Shown here piece by piece: positions 32,433-42,241 of a stretch of DNA of 64,000 nt. The notes under the pieces were generated by a model. It searched no databases, was not told the DNA's origin, and worked only from the letters and a program-made list of their open reading frames with translations. The stretch is taken from positions 62,001 through 126,000 of the forward strand of contig CANIZL010000001.1 in NCBI GenBank assembly GCA_947471985.1. The letters run 5' to 3'. Position numbers and translations under genes: made by a program. This DNA is from Verrucomicrobiota bacterium (GTDB lineage Bacteria > Verrucomicrobiota > Verrucomicrobiia > Limisphaerales > UBA9464). Each line of letters opens with the position of its first letter. The stretch's first letter is position 1.

Positions 32433-32490
32433 CCGGGGACCTCCCGATTTTACCCCTGCCGTGGCGTCGGGCCGCCCTAAGTTTCTCGCC

Positions 32491-33183
32491 GTGAAGTTTT
32501 GGTCAGGCTGGCCGCGGCCGGGGTGGTTGCTGCTGTTCGGAGGATTCTCCGCCCCGTCCGCTGTCGACGTTCCCGGACATCCCTGGGTACGCACGTGGTC
32601 GTCCCACGAAATGGGCGGCAATCCGCAGGTGGGCGCCGTGGCCGTCGATCCCGATGGCCGTATCTGGCTCGGTGCCGCCAGCCGTCTCGCCGCGTGGGAC
32701 GGGGGCGACTGGGTGGGACACGACACCGAGGGCGCCAATGTCACTTGAACTCTGGCGGTCAACGGGGCCATGACTTCCGCTCCTGACGTTCAGTGCTTTG
32801 GACTTCAGTTTTGGCCAGGCGGATGCGGTGCGCGTGGGGTGTGATGATTTCCTGCTCAAACCGTTTCGCGAATCGGAATTGACGGACGCAGTGGGTCGCC
32901 TCTTGCGGCTGAAATGGCGTACGGAGTCACGGGCGCCCCAGCCGCGAGGAGATTCGGTGGCGGCGCCGTCGCCCGGGACACCGGAATGCCTTCCGCTGCG
33001 GTGCTCCGCGAGCTGCGGGGGCGGCCAATCGCGGCGATATCGCCGAGGTCCAGCGGCAATTGGCAGGCTTAGGTCGTCAGCACCCCTTATGGATCCCGGT
33101 ACTGGACCGCCTTGCGTCCCGTTTCCTGATGCAGGCTCTGCGGGAGCGAATCGTTGCCGCTGGAGCGCCTACGGAAGCATGAA
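32491..33183 (+). pseudogene. Relic of a hybrid histidine kinase: N-terminal propeller start plus C-terminal REC end, core deleted, frameshifted
   Basis: 32491-32748 encodes VPGHPWVRTWSSHEMGGNPQVGAVAVDPDGRIWLGAASRLAAWDGGDWV (two-component-regulator-propeller-like). 32798 onward encodes AVRVGCDDFLLKPFRESELTDAVGRLLRL (REC C-terminus). A second frame then gives AANRGDIAEVQRQLAGLGRQHPLWIPVLDRLASRFLMQALRERIVAAGAPTEA*. Confidence 0.7.
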
Positions 33184-33284
33184 AATATTTTGGGACCGCC
33201 GCCGAGGCGGGTAACTTCAAAAATTCGTAACTAATTGATAATGAATGATGCATATGCGGGAAAAGCTTAGCTAATCCCTGGTGT

Positions 33285-33300
33285 GGTCCGATATCGGACC
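33285..33300. promoter_or_regulatory. Inverted repeat GGTCCG-ATAT-CGGACC upstream of the first protease
   Basis: GTGGTCCGATATCGGACCGAA; the same motif with the same spacer lies at 39519-39534 upstream of the paralogous protease. Confidence 0.6.
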
Positions 33301-33424
33301 GAATAAAGTTGGGAATTTTCCGTGACACGATTCTAGGGGAACGGATTATTTGTGTAGAGAGCCCTCCGTTGATTCGGAAGGCCCGAAAAGTCCGAGAAGT
33401 AGTTAATCTTCAAGAATCTAACCT

Positions 33425-35668
33425 ATGAAACCTCCTAATGTGAACGGCCGCTGGTGCCGGACGGGTGCGGTTATCGCGAGTCTGTTGTCCGCCGTTGCCT
33501 TGGCCGGGCCTGATCGGGGGCCCGATCATCGTGATTTTCCGAGTTTGAAGTTTTCGGGATCCGCGCACGGCGCCGCGGCCGTGAGCGCCTTGGGCAGCCG
33601 GCTGCCGGAGTTGGCCAACGCCTATGGTTTCGACGCCTTTGCCTTGCGCCGGATGTTTGATGCGGATTCCACGTTGGGCATCGATGACACCGGCCGTTTG
33701 CACTACACCGAGCCGGCGTTCGCTGCGGCTGGTGCGGTGCAAGCGGCGCCGCAGATTCAAGCCCTGGTGCCGCTGGTCGATACCTTCAAGTTGCACAGCC
33801 GCCCCTCGGCCAAGCGCATCATCTATCTGGATTTCGATGGCCACGTGATGTCCGGCAACGGTTGGACCGCGGCTTACAATGCAGGGAATCCCATCACGGC
33901 GCCGGCCTGGAGTATTGACGCGGATCCGGCCTTCAACGATGCGGAGCGGACCACCATCCAATACATCTGGCAACGGGTGGCGGAAGATTATGCCCCGTTC
34001 GATGTTGATGTCACCACGGAGCTGACGAGTGAGGACCAAATCACCCGTACCGATCTGAATGACCAGTTCTACGGAACCCGGGCCCTGATCAGTCCCATCA
34101 GCTCCTATATCGGTTACTATGGCGGTATCGCCTATGTGGGTGTCTTCGACAGCGTGGGGGACTATTACAAGCCCGCCTTGGTTTTTCCGGAGAATCTGGG
34201 TCCCAATGGTGAAAGCTATATCGCCGAGGCCATTTCCCACGAGGTGGGTCACAATTTCAACCTTAACCACGACGGCACCAGCACGACCGGCTATTACTCA
34301 GGGCAGGGGAACTGGGCTCCGATCATGGGTGTGGGATACTATGTGACGCTCGTCCAATGGAGCAAAGGGGAGTACACCGATGCCAACCAAAAGCAGGACG
34401 ATCTGGCCATCATCGCGGGCTATGTCGGTTATCGGCCCGATGACCACGGGAATACCTCGGCGACGGCGACCCAGTTGCCAGCGGGGACCAGTTTGTCGGC
34501 CTCCGGCGTGATCACCAGCAGCACGGATGTGGATGTATTCGCCTTCGTCACCGGTGCCGGCAATGTCGTGATCAATCTCAATCCCGACGATCGTTCGGCA
34601 AACCTGGATATCTCCGCGGAGCTGCGTAATTCCGCGGGCACGCTGGTGGCGGCGAGCAATCCGCTCGGTGCGCTCAACGCCAGCTTCAGCCTCAATCTGG
34701 CCGCGGGCACGTACTTCGTGCACGTGCGGGGCACGGGTGAGGGAAGTCCAACCGCAACGGGCTATAGCTCCTACGCTTCGCTGGGTCAGTACAAGCTCAC
34801 CGGCACGGTCCTGCCGTCCGGTCCACAACCGCCGGTGTCGGCGCCGACTGCCAGTCTGTCGCTCGTGGCGCCCGGTCAAGCCATTACGTTCAGCGGCAGT
34901 GGATCGTTTGATCCGGATGGAGGTTCCATTGTGACCTATAGCTGGGCGTTTAGTGACGTCACCACGGCCTCCGGGGTCTCGGTGTCCAAGTCGTTCGCCA
35001 ACCCGGGCACCTATACCGCCACCCTGACGGTGACGGATGACGAGGGGGCCACGAATGCGAAGGCCATCTCCGTGGTGGTCAATCGGCCGCCGGTGGCCGC
35101 CATCGCGGTGACTCCCGGGACGTCCGGGTTCGCCCCGTTTGCCGTGAATTTCAGCGGCGCGGGTTCGACCGATACGGATGGATCCATCGCGAGTTATGCT
35201 TGGACCTTTGGGGACGGTACCACCGGGACGGGCGTGTCGGTGGCGAAGACTTACAGCAACATTGGTACCTATACCGCCACGTTGACGGTCAAGGACAACA
35301 ACGGCGCCTCCGGGACGAAGACGGCCAGCATTGCGGTCACCCAAAACCCGGCCTCGGTCCTGCGGGTGCAATCCATCGCCTTGCTGGTTCAAACCAGCAA
35401 TCGGGACAAGACCGTCCGCTCGACGGTCAAGGTGACCAATCCGAGTGGTGGGGCGATCTCGGGCGTTACGGTTCGGGGTACCTGGTCGGGCTTGGTGTCC
35501 GGCACGGTCTCCGGTACGACGGATAGCACGGGAACGGTGGTATTCACCAGTTCCCGGACGCGGAGCACCGGGAACGAGACCTTTGCCATCACGGGATTGA
35601 GTCGTACCGGGTACGTTTACGATTCCACCAAGAATGTGGTTACGAGCGCGACGATTGCCGTGCCTTAA
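33425..35668 (+). CDS. Secreted metzincin-like zinc metalloprotease with PPC-like domain, two PKD domains and C-terminal Ig-like domain
   Basis: Zinc motif HEVGHNFNLNHDG; PPC-like DVDVFAFVTGAGNVVINLNPDDRSANLDISAEL; two PKD domains (FDPDGGSIVTYSWAFSD, TDTDGSIASYAWTFGDGTTGTG). Confidence 0.85.
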   Translation: MKPPNVNGRWCRTGAVIASLLSAVALAGPDRGPDHRDFPSLKFSGSAHGAAAVSALGSRLPELANAYGFDAFALRRMFDADSTLGIDDTGRLHYTEPAFAAAGAVQAAPQIQALVPLVDTFKLHSRPSAKRIIYLDFDGHVMSGNGWTAAYNAGNPITAPAWSIDADPAFNDAERTTIQYIWQRVAEDYAPFDVDVTTELTSEDQITRTDLNDQFYGTRALISPISSYIGYYGGIAYVGVFDSVGDYYKPALVFPENLGPNGESYIAEAISHEVGHNFNLNHDGTSTTGYYSGQGNWAPIMGVGYYVTLVQWSKGEYTDANQKQDDLAIIAGYVGYRPDDHGNTSATATQLPAGTSLSASGVITSSTDVDVFAFVTGAGNVVINLNPDDRSANLDISAELRNSAGTLVAASNPLGALNASFSLNLAAGTYFVHVRGTGEGSPTATGYSSYASLGQYKLTGTVLPSGPQPPVSAPTASLSLVAPGQAITFSGSGSFDPDGGSIVTYSWAFSDVTTASGVSVSKSFANPGTYTATLTVTDDEGATNAKAISVVVNRPPVAAIAVTPGTSGFAPFAVNFSGAGSTDTDGSIASYAWTFGDGTTGTGVSVAKTYSNIGTYTATLTVKDNNGASGTKTASIAVTQNPASVLRVQSIALLVQTSNRDKTVRSTVKVTNPSGGAISGVTVRGTWSGLVSGTVSGTTDSTGTVVFTSSRTRSTGNETFAITGLSRTGYVYDSTKNVVTSATIAVP

Positions 35669-35691
35669 GGTCGGCAGTTGGCGGGATTTGG

Positions 35692-35731
35692 GCGGCGGAG
35701 GCTGAAGAGCTTCCGCCGCTCTTTGCTTTTT
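35692..35731 (+). terminator. Rho-independent terminator
   Basis: GCGGCGGAGGCT-GAAG-AGCTTCCGCCGC then TCTTTGCTTTTT. Confidence 0.7.
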
Positions 35732-35945
35732 GGGGATTCCGTGCTTCCGACAAGTTCGCCCTAAAAGTTGCCGGCGATCGGTCCCGGAAGAACCCGCTCG
35801 GACTCCATCAGGCCGGCTGCCGATCACCGCGCGGAGGCGTGGAAATGGCCGAAAAACGAGAAAACAGTGGACGTAATGGCGGTGCCGGGAGTAACCATTA
35901 CCGCGCCATGGCGTCGGCGATGTCGTGGCTTGAATCACTCAAAAA

Positions 35946-38900
35946 ATGAAAATAAATTGCCCGTCAATCTGGTCGGCCCTGCTGGGTGCCGCAGCCATGA
36001 GCCAGGTGGAAGGTGCCACCACGGCACTCCCCCCCAGCTCGCAGCTACCGCTTGGTTTTTTCACGAACCGCGGTTTCCAAGTTCGCGTTCGACAGGCGGC
36101 TCCCACACCCCTGTTGGACAACAATCAACTGCGCGCCATGCGCCAGTTGAATGACACCCTGCTCCTGGCGGACGGGAATTCGGTCACCAACATCGTCGAA
36201 GCCGGGACCCTGGCTCGCGGCGCCTACGCGGCAGATCTCATCAGCTTCGAGCGGGACGGCGCCCCGGTTGATCTCGTCGATGCCGACGGCAATCCGTTGA
36301 TCGAGTTTAACACGACGGGATTTCCGGGCGTGCCGACGGACGTCGGTGCTGAGCCCAACCTGGCGGTCGAGGTCATCGCGTATCTCGAATTACCCGCCGG
36401 GGTTACCACGTTTGGTGTCAGTGTCTCGACGGACCGCACCGATGTGAACGACGATGACGGGTACGTGGTGTACACGGCGTCGAATCCCAATGATTACTTC
36501 GGCCTGAAAATTGGTGAGTACGAGCGCAGTGTTTTTGCCAAACCGTTCGGCACTGGGCAGCGAAACGAAAACCAGTGGTCCGTCTCCGCGGCGACCAAGG
36601 CGATTTTTCCGGTCCGCATCCTTTACTGGCAGACTGATCGGGGCGCCAACCTCCAGTTCTACACCGTGGCCGACGATGGCACGCGGACCCTGGTGAATGA
36701 CACCGGTGGGATCAAAGCCTACCGGTCCAGCAGCCTTTCGGTAGTTACCGGGCCGTATGTTGGGGAAGCCTCCCCGTCGGCCGGCTCGGACGGTGTTCCG
36801 GCCAACACGCCCATCACGGCTCTTATCGTGGACGGGGCCAAGACGGTTTCGACCAGCGGGGTGAAACTCTTCGTGAACAACACGCAGGTGACGCCGCAGT
36901 CCCTCGTCAAGACGGGGGATCACATCGCCCTCAAGTACGATCCGAACGCCTCCCGCACGGAAGCCAAAACGGCGGTGCGGTTGGAATACGCCGATTCCGG
37001 CGGGACGGTCCGCACGAATGAGTGGAGCTTCGGGATTGTGGCGGCCGGTGTTTCGTCGACGAAGGTGACCGGCCAGTGGGATTTTGATGGGGGCAACCTC
37101 AACGCAACCGTCGGAACGCCGTTGGCGTACCTCGATGGTCCGGCTGGTTTGACCGCCACCGGGACACAATTCGGTACCTGCTCGCAGCTCGGTGTGCCGT
37201 TGATTGGCGACGTGGATGCGAAAATCATGCGGGTTCCGGGCGATCTCAAACGGGAGATCGGCTACGTGATGACCCACGGCATCGCCCCGAATGGCGGTGG
37301 TACGAAGGTCAACCAGTTCACCATCATCTATGATCTTTATGTCGGTACCACCGGACCGGGAGCCGCGTCGCTCCTGCAGATCAGTTCGCTGAACAACACC
37401 GACGACGGTGACCTGTTCTGGCAGGGTAACAACTTCGGTCAGGGCACCGCCGGCTACAACGGTCGGGGCACCTTTACGGCCGGCGCCTGGCATCGGGTGG
37501 TCGCGGCTTACGATCTGAAGGCAACGCCCCCCGTGGTGACCAAGTACGTGGACGGTATCAAGCAGGATGACTGGACCACCGGCCAGGGGCTGGACCTGGC
37601 ACGCCGGGCCCTTCAGCCGACGGCGATTCTGTTTGGCGACGGCGATCAGGACGAGCGCCGTGAAATGTTCGTGAATTCCATTCAGATCCGCAACGGCAAG
37701 TTGTCCGACGCGGAGTGTTTCGCCCTGGGTGGACCGACGGCGGACGGCATTCCCGCGGTGATTCCGCAAAGCACGGTCACCGGCCAGTGGGATTTCAATT
37801 TCAAGGACCTGGGCGCCAGCATCGGTTCGCCCTTGCAATACTTTGATGGCCCCGATGGCCTGACCAAGGCGGGTACTGAGTTCGGCACGTGCTCGGAACT
37901 CGGAGTGGCCCTCATCGGTGGCGCAGACGCCCAAATTATGAAGGTCCCCGGCGATCTCAAGCGGGAGATCGGCTATATCATGGATCACCGCATCGCTCCC
38001 AACGGCGGCGGCACGAAGGTGAATCAGTACACCATTGTGTTTGACGTCCTGGTTGGCACGACGGGCCCGGGAGCCGCGTCCCTCCTCAACCTCAGTTCGC
38101 TGAACAACACCGATGACGGTGATCTGTTCTGGCAGGGCAGCAATTTCGGTCAGGGCACCGGCGGTTACAACGGCCGCGGCACGTTTACCGCGGGTGATTG
38201 GCACCGCGTGGTGGCCGCCTATGACGAAGCAGCCTCGACGCCCGTGGTGGTGAAATATGTCGACGGCATCAAGCAGGATGAATGGACCGCCGGTCAGGGT
38301 CTGGATCTGCCGCGCCGGGCGATGCAAGCCACGGCCATTCTCTTCGGCGATGGCGATCAGGATGAACGCCGTGAGATGTGGGTGAACTCCATTCAGATCC
38401 GCAAGGGACGCTTGAGCGATGCGGAGATCGTCTTGCTCGGTGGACCTGGTGCTGCGGGCATCCCCGTCGCGCTGCCGAAGAGCACGGTCACGGGTCAATG
38501 GGACTTCAACTCCAAGGATTTGGGCGCCACGATCGGCGCCAACCTGGAGTACCTGGACGGTGCCGATGGCCTGACCAAGGCGGGTACCGTGTTCGGTAAG
38601 TGCTCGGAACTCGATGTGCCGCTCATCAATGGCAAGGACGCCGACATCATGAAGGTTCCCGGCGATCTCGATCGGAAGATCGGTTACCTCATGACCCATC
38701 GGATTGCCCCGAACGGCGGCGGAACCAAGGTCAATCAATACACGATCGCCTTCGACATCCTCGTCGGCACCACGGGACCGGGGGCTGCCTCGCTGCTGCA
38801 GTTGAGCTCCGTGGCCAACACTGATGACGGTGACCTGTTCTGGCAGGGCAGCAACTTCGGTCAGGGGACCGGAGGCTACAATGGCACGGGCGCCTTCACG

Positions 38901-39392
38901 GCGGGTGAATGGCATCGCGTCGTGGCCGCTTACGACGAGGCGGCGAATCCTCCGGTCGTTACGAAGTTTGTGGACGGCATCAAACAGGACGATTGGACCG
39001 CCGGCCAGGGCTTGGATCTGCCCCGCCGGGCCATGCAGCCGCAGGCGGTGCTGTTCGGCGACGGTGATCAGGATGAGCGCCGCGAAATGTGGGTGAACTC
39101 CATCCAGGTGCGGGTGGGTAAACTGTCCGACGCCGAGATGACGGCGCTGGGTGCGCCGACGGGCGATCCCCTGCCGGTGAGCATCGCGGTGTTGGCGCCG
39201 GTTGTTCGTCCGACGCTCACGGCGAGCCGTGACGCCAACGGGGCTTTGGTCCTGACCTGGACGGGCGGGGCGGGCTTCGTTCTGGAGTCCAAGTCGGCCT
39301 TGGACGCCGCTCAATGGGTTGCGGTTCCGGGCGGCAGCCCGGCCACGATCGCGCCGGCTCAAGCCGCGGCGTTCTATCGGTTGCGGTTCTAA
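35946..39392 (+). CDS. Large secreted LamG-like protein with three tandem 237-aa domains
   Basis: Three copies of VTGQWDF...DGxxGLT..GT.FG.CSEL.VPLI...GDL.R.IGY.M.H.IAPNGGGTKVNQ.TI.FD..VGTTGPGAASLL; C-terminal FVLESKSALDAAQWVAVPGG...AAAFYRLRF. Confidence 0.82.
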   Translation: MKINCPSIWSALLGAAAMSQVEGATTALPPSSQLPLGFFTNRGFQVRVRQAAPTPLLDNNQLRAMRQLNDTLLLADGNSVTNIVEAGTLARGAYAADLISFERDGAPVDLVDADGNPLIEFNTTGFPGVPTDVGAEPNLAVEVIAYLELPAGVTTFGVSVSTDRTDVNDDDGYVVYTASNPNDYFGLKIGEYERSVFAKPFGTGQRNENQWSVSAATKAIFPVRILYWQTDRGANLQFYTVADDGTRTLVNDTGGIKAYRSSSLSVVTGPYVGEASPSAGSDGVPANTPITALIVDGAKTVSTSGVKLFVNNTQVTPQSLVKTGDHIALKYDPNASRTEAKTAVRLEYADSGGTVRTNEWSFGIVAAGVSSTKVTGQWDFDGGNLNATVGTPLAYLDGPAGLTATGTQFGTCSQLGVPLIGDVDAKIMRVPGDLKREIGYVMTHGIAPNGGGTKVNQFTIIYDLYVGTTGPGAASLLQISSLNNTDDGDLFWQGNNFGQGTAGYNGRGTFTAGAWHRVVAAYDLKATPPVVTKYVDGIKQDDWTTGQGLDLARRALQPTAILFGDGDQDERREMFVNSIQIRNGKLSDAECFALGGPTADGIPAVIPQSTVTGQWDFNFKDLGASIGSPLQYFDGPDGLTKAGTEFGTCSELGVALIGGADAQIMKVPGDLKREIGYIMDHRIAPNGGGTKVNQYTIVFDVLVGTTGPGAASLLNLSSLNNTDDGDLFWQGSNFGQGTGGYNGRGTFTAGDWHRVVAAYDEAASTPVVVKYVDGIKQDEWTAGQGLDLPRRAMQATAILFGDGDQDERREMWVNSIQIRKGRLSDAEIVLLGGPGAAGIPVALPKSTVTGQWDFNSKDLGATIGANLEYLDGADGLTKAGTVFGKCSELDVPLINGKDADIMKVPGDLDRKIGYLMTHRIAPNGGGTKVNQYTIAFDILVGTTGPGAASLLQLSSVANTDDGDLFWQGSNFGQGTGGYNGTGAFTAGEWHRVVAAYDEAANPPVVTKFVDGIKQDDWTAGQGLDLPRRAMQPQAVLFGDGDQDERREMWVNSIQVRVGKLSDAEMTALGAPTGDPLPVSIAVLAPVVRPTLTASRDANGALVLTWTGGAGFVLESKSALDAAQWVAVPGGSPATIAPAQAAAFYRLRF
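37064..39196 (+). repeat. Three tandem in-gene repeat units, exact 711-bp period
   Basis: GGT(G/C)AC(C/G)GG(C/T)CA(G/A)TGGGA starts at 37064, 37775 and 38486; both intervals are 711 bp. Confidence 0.88.
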
Positions 39393-39436
39393 GTGACGCT
39401 TCCGGGTGCCGCGCAAAGGCAGCGGACCAAAACACA

Positions 39437-39470
39437 CGGCGGGCTCCGAAAGGAGTCCGCCGTTTTCGTT
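39437..39470 (+). terminator. Rho-independent terminator of the LamG-like gene
   Basis: CGGCGGGCTCC-GAAA-GGAGTCCGCCG-TTTTCGTTT. Confidence 0.8.
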
Positions 39471-39518
39471 TAAAAATCAGGGGTTTTAAACGGCTTTGGA
39501 AAGTTTCAAAAAACGAGT

Positions 39519-39534
39519 GGTCCGTTTGCGGACC
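39519..39534. promoter_or_regulatory. Inverted repeat GGTCCG-TTTG-CGGACC upstream of the second protease
   Basis: GTGGTCCGTTTGCGGACCGAA; matches 33285-33300 in arms, spacer length and flanking GTG...GAA. Confidence 0.6.
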
Positions 39535-39688
39535 GAAAATCAAGTTAATTTCATCGTGACTTTTATTCCCCAATATTCTTCATTCTTTCCAGAACCCGTC
39601 GAGCGCTGGACGGGGGCGGTGTGAGTGCAGGTACAAGCGTTTCAACCTTAAACGGTGATAGTTAGTCGGTTAAAAATCCTACTGTTAT

Positions 39689-42241
39689 ATGAAAACCCCG
39701 TCGATCCTTACCCGATGGGATTTGGTCAGTGTGGCAGTGGCGAGCTTGCTCGCACCTGCAGCCTTGGCTGGACCTAACCGCGGCCCCGATAGCCGCAATT
39801 TCCCTCACCTCAATCTTTCCCGCCACCAACACGGGCAGGAAGCTGTGGATCACTTGGGTACCGGCCTGCCCGCCGTTGCCCGAGCTTATGGATTGGATCC
39901 CTTCGCGCTCCGGGTCATGCTGACCGGTGACTCGACGCTGGCCGTCGATGGTACGGGCCGTCTCCACTATTGGGAGCCGGCGGTGGGAGCTGCCGGTGCG
40001 GTGACTGCCGCCCCGCGCGTTCAGGCGCTCGCGCCGTTGACCGAAACATTCAAATTGCACAGCCGTCCCACGGCCAAGCGGATCATCTATCTGGATTTCG
40101 ATGGCCAGGATCTGAGCAATACCGCCTGGAGCGCCGCCTACAATGGCGGAAATCCCATCATCGCCCCGGCTTGGAGTCTGGACGCGGATCCGGCTTTCAA
40201 TGACCAGGAGCGCACTACGATTCAATACATCTGGCAACGCGTCGCGGAGGACTACGCCCCGTTTGACGTCGATGTGACCACGGAATTGGTCAGCGAAGAC
40301 CAGATCACTCGCACGGATGCCAATGATGAGTTCTACGGCACCCGCGCCCTGATCAGCCCAATCAGCTCGTATTTCGGACTCTACGGCGGCATCGCCTATG
40401 TCGGGGCCTTTGATACCTTGGGCGATTTCTATAAGCCGGCGTTGATTTTTCCGGAAAACCTGGGTCCGAATGGTGAAAGCTATATCGCCGAGGCCATCTC
40501 CCACGAGGTGGGACATAACTTCGGTCTGAGTCATGACGGCAGCACCACGGGCTGTGGTGCCACCGGGACCAGCCCGTGTGGCTACTATTCCGGTCAAGGT
40601 AACTGGGCGCCCATCATGGGCGTCGGTTACTACGTGTCGATCGTCCAGTGGAGCAAGGGCGAATACGCCAACGCGAACAATCTGGAGGACGATCTGGCCA
40701 CCATCGCCAGCTATGTCGGCTATCGGGCGGACGATCATGGTGACACCGCGGCCACGGCCACCGTGCTGCCCATCGGATCCCAGCTGTCGGTCTCGGGGGT
40801 GATTTCGAGCAGCAGCGACGTCGATGTCTTTTCCTTCTCTACGGGCTCCAGTGGTCCGGGAGGTACTGGCGCGGTGGCGCTGCAAATCGACCCGGACAGC
40901 CGTTCCGCCAACCTGGACGTTCTGGCCGAACTGCGGGATGCCGCCGGCAATTTGGTGGCCGTAAGCAATCCGGTCGGCGCGCTGAATGCCAGCTTCAATC
41001 TGACCCTGCCCGCCGGGACCTATTTTGTGCACGTCTGGGGCACGGGCGAGGGGAGTGCGTCCCTGACGGGATACAGTGCCTACGCCTCCGTGGGTCAGTA
41101 CACCCTGACCGGCACGGTGGTGAGCCCGGGTCCGCAACCGCCGGTGGCCGTCGCCACGGCGACACCTTTGAAAGTGGCCCCGGGTCAGTCCGTGACCTTT
41201 GACGGCAACGGTTCGTTTGACCCGGATGGCGGCGCCCTGGTCAGTTACGCCTGGAGCTTCAGCGATGGCGCTTCGGGCACGGGGGCGATCGTGGGCAAAG
41301 TGTTCACCCTGCCGGGTGTCTATACGGCCACCTTGACGGTGACGGACAATGAGCTGGTGACCGCCTCCACGACCGTCTCGGTGCAGGTCAACAATCCGCC
41401 GGTCGCGGGCATCACGGTGACTCCGGGTACCTCGGGCAAGACGCCGTACGCCGTGAGTTTCAGCGGGGCGACTTCCTCGGACTCCGACGGTACCATCGTC
41501 AGCTACGCTTGGAATTTCGGCAACGGCACCACCGGGACCGGAGTCAACGTTTCCAAGACCTACACCACGGCGGGAACCTACAATGTGGTTTTGACCGTGA
41601 CCGACAACAACGGCGCGACGGCCTCCAAAACCGTGGTCATCACGGTGGTCGCCAACAAGGCACCCGTCGCGGCGGTTGCGGTGAGTCCGGGTACCACCGG
41701 AACGGCGCCCTTCGCGGTGAGCTTCAGCGGAGCCGGTTCCTCGGATTCCGATGGCACCATCACTTCCTACGCTTGGAGTTTCGGCGATGGAACGACGGGT
41801 TCCGGAGTCAATGTCTCCAAGACCTACACCACGGCGGGGACCTTTAGCGCGAAATTGACCGTGACGGACAACAACGGCGCGACGGGAACCAAGACGGTGA
41901 CGATCACCGTGAATCCGAATCCGAGCACCGTGTTGCATGTGCAGACCATTGGCCTGACTGTGCAGACGACGGCGGGAAGCAAGACGGTGACCTCGACGGT
42001 CACGGTATTTAATTCCAACGGGCTGCCCGTATCCGGCGTCACCGTAAGCGGCCGGTGGAGCGGCATTGTGAGCGGTCCTGACTCGGCGGTGACCGACGTC
42101 AATGGGCGAGCGGTAATGGTCAGTCCCAAGACCAAATCCACCGGCACGGAGACGTTCTCGGTAACCGGAGTGAGCCGCAGCGGCTATACCTACAATTCCG
42201 CCCTCAATGTGGTTTCGAGCGCATCCATCGCGGTGCCTTGA
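39689..42241 (+). CDS. Second secreted metzincin-like zinc metalloprotease, paralog of 33425-35668, with three PKD domains
   Basis: HEVGHNFGLSHDG zinc motif, near-identical order of segments to 33425-35668, extra PKD domain, same C-terminal domain (STVTVFNSNGLPVSGVTVSGRWSGIVSG...SASIAVP). Confidence 0.86.
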   Translation: MKTPSILTRWDLVSVAVASLLAPAALAGPNRGPDSRNFPHLNLSRHQHGQEAVDHLGTGLPAVARAYGLDPFALRVMLTGDSTLAVDGTGRLHYWEPAVGAAGAVTAAPRVQALAPLTETFKLHSRPTAKRIIYLDFDGQDLSNTAWSAAYNGGNPIIAPAWSLDADPAFNDQERTTIQYIWQRVAEDYAPFDVDVTTELVSEDQITRTDANDEFYGTRALISPISSYFGLYGGIAYVGAFDTLGDFYKPALIFPENLGPNGESYIAEAISHEVGHNFGLSHDGSTTGCGATGTSPCGYYSGQGNWAPIMGVGYYVSIVQWSKGEYANANNLEDDLATIASYVGYRADDHGDTAATATVLPIGSQLSVSGVISSSSDVDVFSFSTGSSGPGGTGAVALQIDPDSRSANLDVLAELRDAAGNLVAVSNPVGALNASFNLTLPAGTYFVHVWGTGEGSASLTGYSAYASVGQYTLTGTVVSPGPQPPVAVATATPLKVAPGQSVTFDGNGSFDPDGGALVSYAWSFSDGASGTGAIVGKVFTLPGVYTATLTVTDNELVTASTTVSVQVNNPPVAGITVTPGTSGKTPYAVSFSGATSSDSDGTIVSYAWNFGNGTTGTGVNVSKTYTTAGTYNVVLTVTDNNGATASKTVVITVVANKAPVAAVAVSPGTTGTAPFAVSFSGAGSSDSDGTITSYAWSFGDGTTGSGVNVSKTYTTAGTFSAKLTVTDNNGATGTKTVTITVNPNPSTVLHVQTIGLTVQTTAGSKTVTSTVTVFNSNGLPVSGVTVSGRWSGIVSGPDSAVTDVNGRAVMVSPKTKSTGTETFSVTGVSRSGYTYNSALNVVSSASIAVP

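Follow-up and report, generated by a model that had tools for sequence, protein, structure and literature searches.

The window analyzed here, a stretch of 64,000 nucleotides from a Verrucomicrobiota genome (assembly GCA_947471985.1, contig CANIZL010000001.1, positions 62,001 to 126,000), with homologs and gene content likewise suggestive of Verrucomicrobiota, contains two paralogous genes for secreted metalloproteases (hereafter, proteases 1 and 2), each preceded by a palindrome close to the consensus TGGTCCG-N4-CGGACCA. Palindromes of this form are clustered upstream of a gene encoding a secreted protein with Ig and PPC domains in most genera of the respective bacterial family, and this gene adjoins one for an NtrC-type response regulator. 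From these comparative observations, it appears probable that the palindrome is an upstream activating site of this regulator and that both proteases belong to its regulon.

Palindromes ahead of the protease genes

The palindrome arms, GTGGTCCG and CGGACCGAA, are identical at the two protease loci and the 4-nt spacers are unlike; with the flanking GTG and GAA, the two sites read GTGGTCCGatatCGGACCGAA (33283-33303) and GTGGTCCGtttgCGGACCGAA (39517-39537). The ATG codons of proteases 1 and 2 (33425 and 39689, respectively) follow the palindrome ends by 124 and 154 nt, and the distance from GAA to the end of a common CGTGAC hexamer is 23 nt at both loci (33321-33326 and 39555-39560). All these shared features had been pointed out in a preceding sequence-only reading of this region and were confirmed on the window sequence, as was the lack of the palindrome before the LamG-like gene located between the proteases, upstream of which there is neither an exact nor a one-mismatch copy. 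The AAGTT..AATTT core that was described as another shared feature is indeed present at both loci but is shifted by 3 nt, so that the likeness is weaker than originally thought; taken on its own, the stretch from the palindrome to CGTGAC shows marginal similarity between the loci (p=0.05). The extended form including GTG and GAA has exact matches genome-wide at the two protease sites only.

The source genome (6.38 Mb in 180 contigs; denoted G000) contains 7 exact copies of GGTCCG-N4-CGGACC, compared to 0 for the reversed control. By itself, this number is mildly unusual, with 0-6 copies in related genomes and order-wide counts near the control, and motif counts were not relied upon as evidence; in the relatives, 39 of the 49 matches with the 6-4-6 layout are coding. 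The significance of the motif lies instead in its intergenic location, the AT-rich spacers and the divergence of the paralogs. Six of the 7 exact sites in the source genome are intergenic, against the 11.4% share of intergenic sequence estimated from gene calls over 1.61 Mb of the genome (p=1.4e-5), and so are 9 of the 11 sites that deviate from TGGTCCG-N4-CGGACCA by no more than one base (p=1.4e-7). Equal frequency in coding and intergenic DNA, which the earlier reading had named as unfavorable to its proposal, is thus not what the genome shows. Short palindromes with any arms and the same spacing are about 17% intergenic, which softens this enrichment without removing it. In the spacers of the six exact intergenic sites, 20 of the 24 bases are A or T, compared to 39% expected (p=9e-6). 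The half-site TTGGTCCGA is uninformative, with 25 of its 30 genome-wide occurrences being coding.

Family-wide sites and the adjacent regulator

The connection to a regulator emerged from reading the intergenic sites in relatives. One of these, in genome G023, is a perfect match lying ahead of the gene for a secreted protein that has a relative behind a cluster of five palindromes on contig C39 of the source genome; 13 members of this secreted Ig/PPC-domain gene group were then examined. With one mismatch allowed, GGTCCG-N4-CGGACC was found 15 times upstream of these genes, the copies being spread over 8 of the 13 regions, whereas 59 arm permutations yielded a mean of 0.12 sites and a maximum of 1. 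When the source genome is left out, 11 sites remain, in 7 of 11 regions. Genomes G000, G023 and G072 helped choose the gene group; those that were not used in this choice, namely, G071, G027, G010, G029 and G014, hold six sites at the same threshold. At C39, the five palindromes are spaced by 32, 125, 21 and 21 bp and deviate from helical phase by no more than about 1 bp (R 0.97, with a p of 0.0006, or 0.03 when the 21-bp triplet, which could stem from local duplication, is counted once); a tandem repeat finder reported nothing in this cluster.

Elements resembling sigma-54 promoters (TGGCAC-N5-TTGC, up to two mismatches allowed, GG and GC required) were detected upstream of 9 of the 13 genes, compared to a mean of 2.2 and a maximum of 8 in shuffled sequences. 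In every region with both signals, the sigma-54-like element is located 3' of the palindromes, which at this conserved target usually lie 60-140 bp ahead of the -24/-12 element; similarly, a prepilin-type gene (C16:15328) has a sigma-54-like element about 115 bp from its palindrome. The upstream regions of G072, G023 and G027 (L392, L375 and L396), which are close relatives, also have TTGGCAYG-N4-STGAT in common close to the start of the gene; it resembles a sigma-54 element in which GA replaces GC at -12.

An NtrC-type response regulator adjoins the secreted gene in all nine loci of relatives that are uncut by a contig end and, in the source genome, at both C16 and C39. The C39 and C16 regulators match the receiver (PF00072), Sigma54_activat (PF00158) and Fis-type helix-turn-helix (HTH; PF02954) domains above the cut-offs and contain the sigma-54-contact loop GAYTGA, with variants such as GSYTGA in some relatives; the regulator fits no named equivalog. 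A CHASE2-PAS-kinase-receiver protein is encoded upstream of the C39 palindrome cluster, and a homolog of this kinase is present in the C16 locus. A FecR gene is found at C16 and in the loci of relatives, and the palindrome at C94 precedes a FecR-TPR protein that shares 47% identity with the C16 FecR protein.

The recognition helix of the regulator and the palindrome co-vary. The helix THQALLRRLQKW (THQ..Q) in G071, G023, G027 and G020 (SHQ in G014) is paired with TGGTCCG sites, and the helix SPQALLRRLEKW (SPQ..E), which is found in the C16 regulator as well as in G011 and G015 and defines a supported clade, is accompanied by TGTTCCG sites at C16 and in G011, with none found in G015. At C16, the secreted Ig/PPC gene is preceded by TGTTCCG-CAAT-CGGAACA, the one-base-different version of the site that goes with the SPQ-type regulator, and by a second variant palindrome (L126:3249-3298, that is, G000 C16:43249-43298). 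Because TGGTCCG sites go with THQ-type regulators, a second regulator of this type was predicted in the source genome; it turned up at C39:32563-34003, where it immediately follows the secreted gene and has the helix ITHQTLLRRIQKW.

Under the mechanism that we propose, the CHASE2 kinase would phosphorylate the C39 regulator, which would bind the palindromes as a dimer and, once bound, would turn on the secreted-protein genes, activation being the presumed direction of control. Both secreted proteases would have joined the C39 regulon in this species, and the FecR-TPR protein and the prepilin-type protein probably joined it as well. Activation at the proteases is the weakest step because no sigma-54 promoter is visible there. 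Several observations weigh against the scheme. At neither protease locus is a sigma-54 promoter with two or fewer mismatches present between the palindrome and the gene, protease 1 bears a sigma-70-like match in its place, and the protease promoters were not classed as sigma-54 promoters. The sites at C69 (deacetylase/yggS and LysR) are unlike sigma-54 targets, and the orthologous loci of G015 and G003 have no site within two mismatches upstream. Finally, the conservation in other species on which the sequence-only reading had made its proposal depend holds in part: the motif is kept in other genera, but before a different gene, being absent upstream of the protease homologs there.

The regulator might act on the proteases via ordinary sigma-70 promoters, with the dyad about 64 bp before the start and an intact sigma-54 loop, the paralogous regulator being insulated by the H to P and Q to E changes in the helix matched to one base per half-site; we regard this combination as a tentative and rather unlikely one. 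By our own estimate, the center of the palindrome would be near -64, a common location for activators of sigma-70 promoters, if CGTGAC overlaps a real -35 element.

If this assignment is right, a concrete regulator, its operator sequence and a list of targets become available, from sequence alone, for secreted proteins in an uncultured family. The paralogous regulators with different helices and half-sites would represent a natural experiment on target separation after duplication, and the proteases would show a regulon gaining members.

Alternative explanations and the surrounding transcription units

The protease sites could belong to another, unrelated dimeric regulator, such as a repressor that binds across the promoter region, in which case the match to the NtrC-type system would be coincidental. 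The protease promoters without a sigma-54 element are compatible with this possibility, and the C69 site, located 16 bp before a LysR-type gene, would suit a repressor. Nevertheless, we consider it unlikely: the same 14 arm bases and the 4-bp spacer recur as conserved sites next to the NtrC-type regulator of other genera, that regulator is encoded in the source genome, and LysR orthologs across the family have no site upstream. The LysR protein next to the C69 site was itself considered as the cognate regulator and rejected, its orthologs in 29 loci of relatives having no palindrome upstream; FadR-like and CsnR-like operators, retrieved by a text search for GGTCCG, have a different spacing or match only in an oligonucleotide. 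A hairpin in the 5' leaders of both protease mRNAs, steering stability or translation, is highly improbable. The arms can indeed pair as a stem of 6-7 bp with a tetraloop (-10.8 to -11.4 kcal/mol), and the sequence-only reading had offered a dimer-binding site or an RNA hairpin as candidates for selection. The DNA dyad is the better reading of the sequence pattern because the arms show no compensatory changes: among 11 distinct intergenic sites, there are 0 compensatory pair changes and pair-breaking ones at most of the seven pairs. Furthermore, the putative protease leaders fold unremarkably (z -1.3 and -0.8), no better than shuffled sequences beyond the short stem, Rfam yielded no match, the sites are clustered and can be as far as about 650 bp from the gene they precede, and the sigma-70-like promoter of protease 1 would place the transcription start 3' of the palindrome.

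The two proteases are each other's sole paralogs in the genome, and the restriction of the full GTG...GAA form to their upstream regions is what would be expected if the palindrome were a functionless remnant of the protease duplication. However, the paralogs differ at 58-61% of the fourfold sites (dS about 1.55), and the upstream DNA outside the palindrome-to-CGTGAC block is unalignable, which is at odds with passive carry-over from a very recent duplication, a scenario raised in the earlier reading; given this divergence of the paralogs and flanks, the complete retention of the arm and flank bases (17 of 17 unchanged) is not expected from carry-over. With the motif present also before unrelated genes, both in this genus and in others, such a remnant seems barely credible. 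It is also very doubtful that the palindrome is a small dispersed intergenic repeat, similar to repetitive extragenic palindromic (REP) sequences or miniature inverted-repeat transposable elements (MITEs), or a terminator hairpin. Only seven of its copies are exact, those on different contigs lack flank similarity, the stem is not followed by a run of T on the coding strand, and across the family the motif is linked to a single gene and its regulator, even if the intergenic location and the recurrence of other palindrome families between genes of this genome are in line with a repeat. Two such families were observed in the 1.6 Mb sample of G000, both intergenic: GGACTGC-N-GCAGTCC, with 8-9 copies, and CCGGAT-NN-ATCCGG, with 7 copies, which may be REP-like elements or terminators.

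Terminator-like hairpins flank the LamG-like gene (Table 1), so that each of the three genes seems to form a transcription unit of its own, and because the second of these hairpins (39436-39463) precedes palindrome 2, a separate promoter is expected for protease 2. As read from the translation, the LamG-like protein consists mostly of three tandem, highly alike repeats of about 230 aa each. A solved-structure search with the protease gave no match. Just upstream of protease 1, on the plus strand (32480-33182), there is a remnant of a hybrid sensor protein with weak Pfam matches, a Reg_prop-like N-terminal piece followed by a receiver-domain C-terminal end in another frame, suggestive of a two-component gene that has decayed or suffered an internal deletion, or else of a fault in the assembly.

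Table 1 Features of the two protease loci and the intervening region, in window coordinates
Feature	Position	Strand	Remarks
Palindrome 1, TGGTCCG-ATAT-CGGACCG	33284..33301	.	1 mismatch to TGGTCCG-N4-CGGACCA; proposed regulator site, protease 1
CGTGAC common to both loci	33321..33326	+	Overlaps -35 of sigma-70-like promoter, protease 1
Promoter-like GTGACA-N16-GATTAT before protease 1	33322..33349	+	Only 9/12 consensus match; 2 found vs shuffle mean 0.2
Protease 1, secreted reprolysin-like metalloprotease	33425..35668	+	747 aa; PPC-like and PKD domains
Terminator-like hairpin after protease 1	35690..35721	+	
LamG-like repeat protein gene	35946..39392	+	1148 aa; no palindrome upstream
Terminator-like hairpin between LamG gene and palindrome 2	39436..39463	+	12 pairs
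Palindrome 2, TGGTCCG-TTTG-CGGACCG	39518..39535	.	Proposed regulator site, protease 2
CGTGAC at equal distance, before protease 2	39555..39560	+	No promoter called at protease 2
Protease 2, paralogous metalloprotease	39689..42241	+	850 aa; 73% identity to protease 1 across first 463 aa

Comparison with known systems

No published description of TGGTCCG-N4-CGGACCA or TGTTCCG-N4-CGGAACA was found, subscription literature lying outside the search. The regulator to which we assign the palindromes resembles NtrC-family response regulators with sigma-54 promoters in its receiver, AAA (with the GAYTGA loop) and Fis-type HTH domains, and in the arrangement of dyad sites in phased clusters 60-140 bp ahead of the -24/-12 element at the conserved target; it differs in the recognition sequence, TGGTCCG-N4-CGGACCA (or TGTTCCG-N4-CGGAACA), and in that both protease promoters have no recognizable sigma-54 element. 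The system is a member of the NtrC/sigma-54 kind but is not PrsR. In PEP-CTERM bacteria, the NtrC-type regulator of the PrsK/PrsR pair has been proposed to drive sigma-54-dependent genes for secreted proteins, with a predicted enhancer upstream (PMC1569441, PMC9850573). An NtrC-type response regulator and secreted-protein genes are combined here too, but the C16 regulator, with 247 bits, misses the cut-off of 502.6 for PEP_resp_reg (TIGR02915), and the kinase is a CHASE2 hybrid. In the BiofilmReg operon of Burkholderia contaminans, a CHASE2 histidine kinase, a FecR-domain protein and a response regulator are encoded together, the regulator being CreB/OmpR-like (REC + trans_reg_C) and the FecR protein carrying LysM (PMC5192318). 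The locus described here shares with this operon the CHASE2 histidine kinase and the FecR protein, but its regulator is of the NtrC type rather than the OmpR/CreB type, its FecR protein contains TPR repeats, and a secreted Ig/PPC protein is added.

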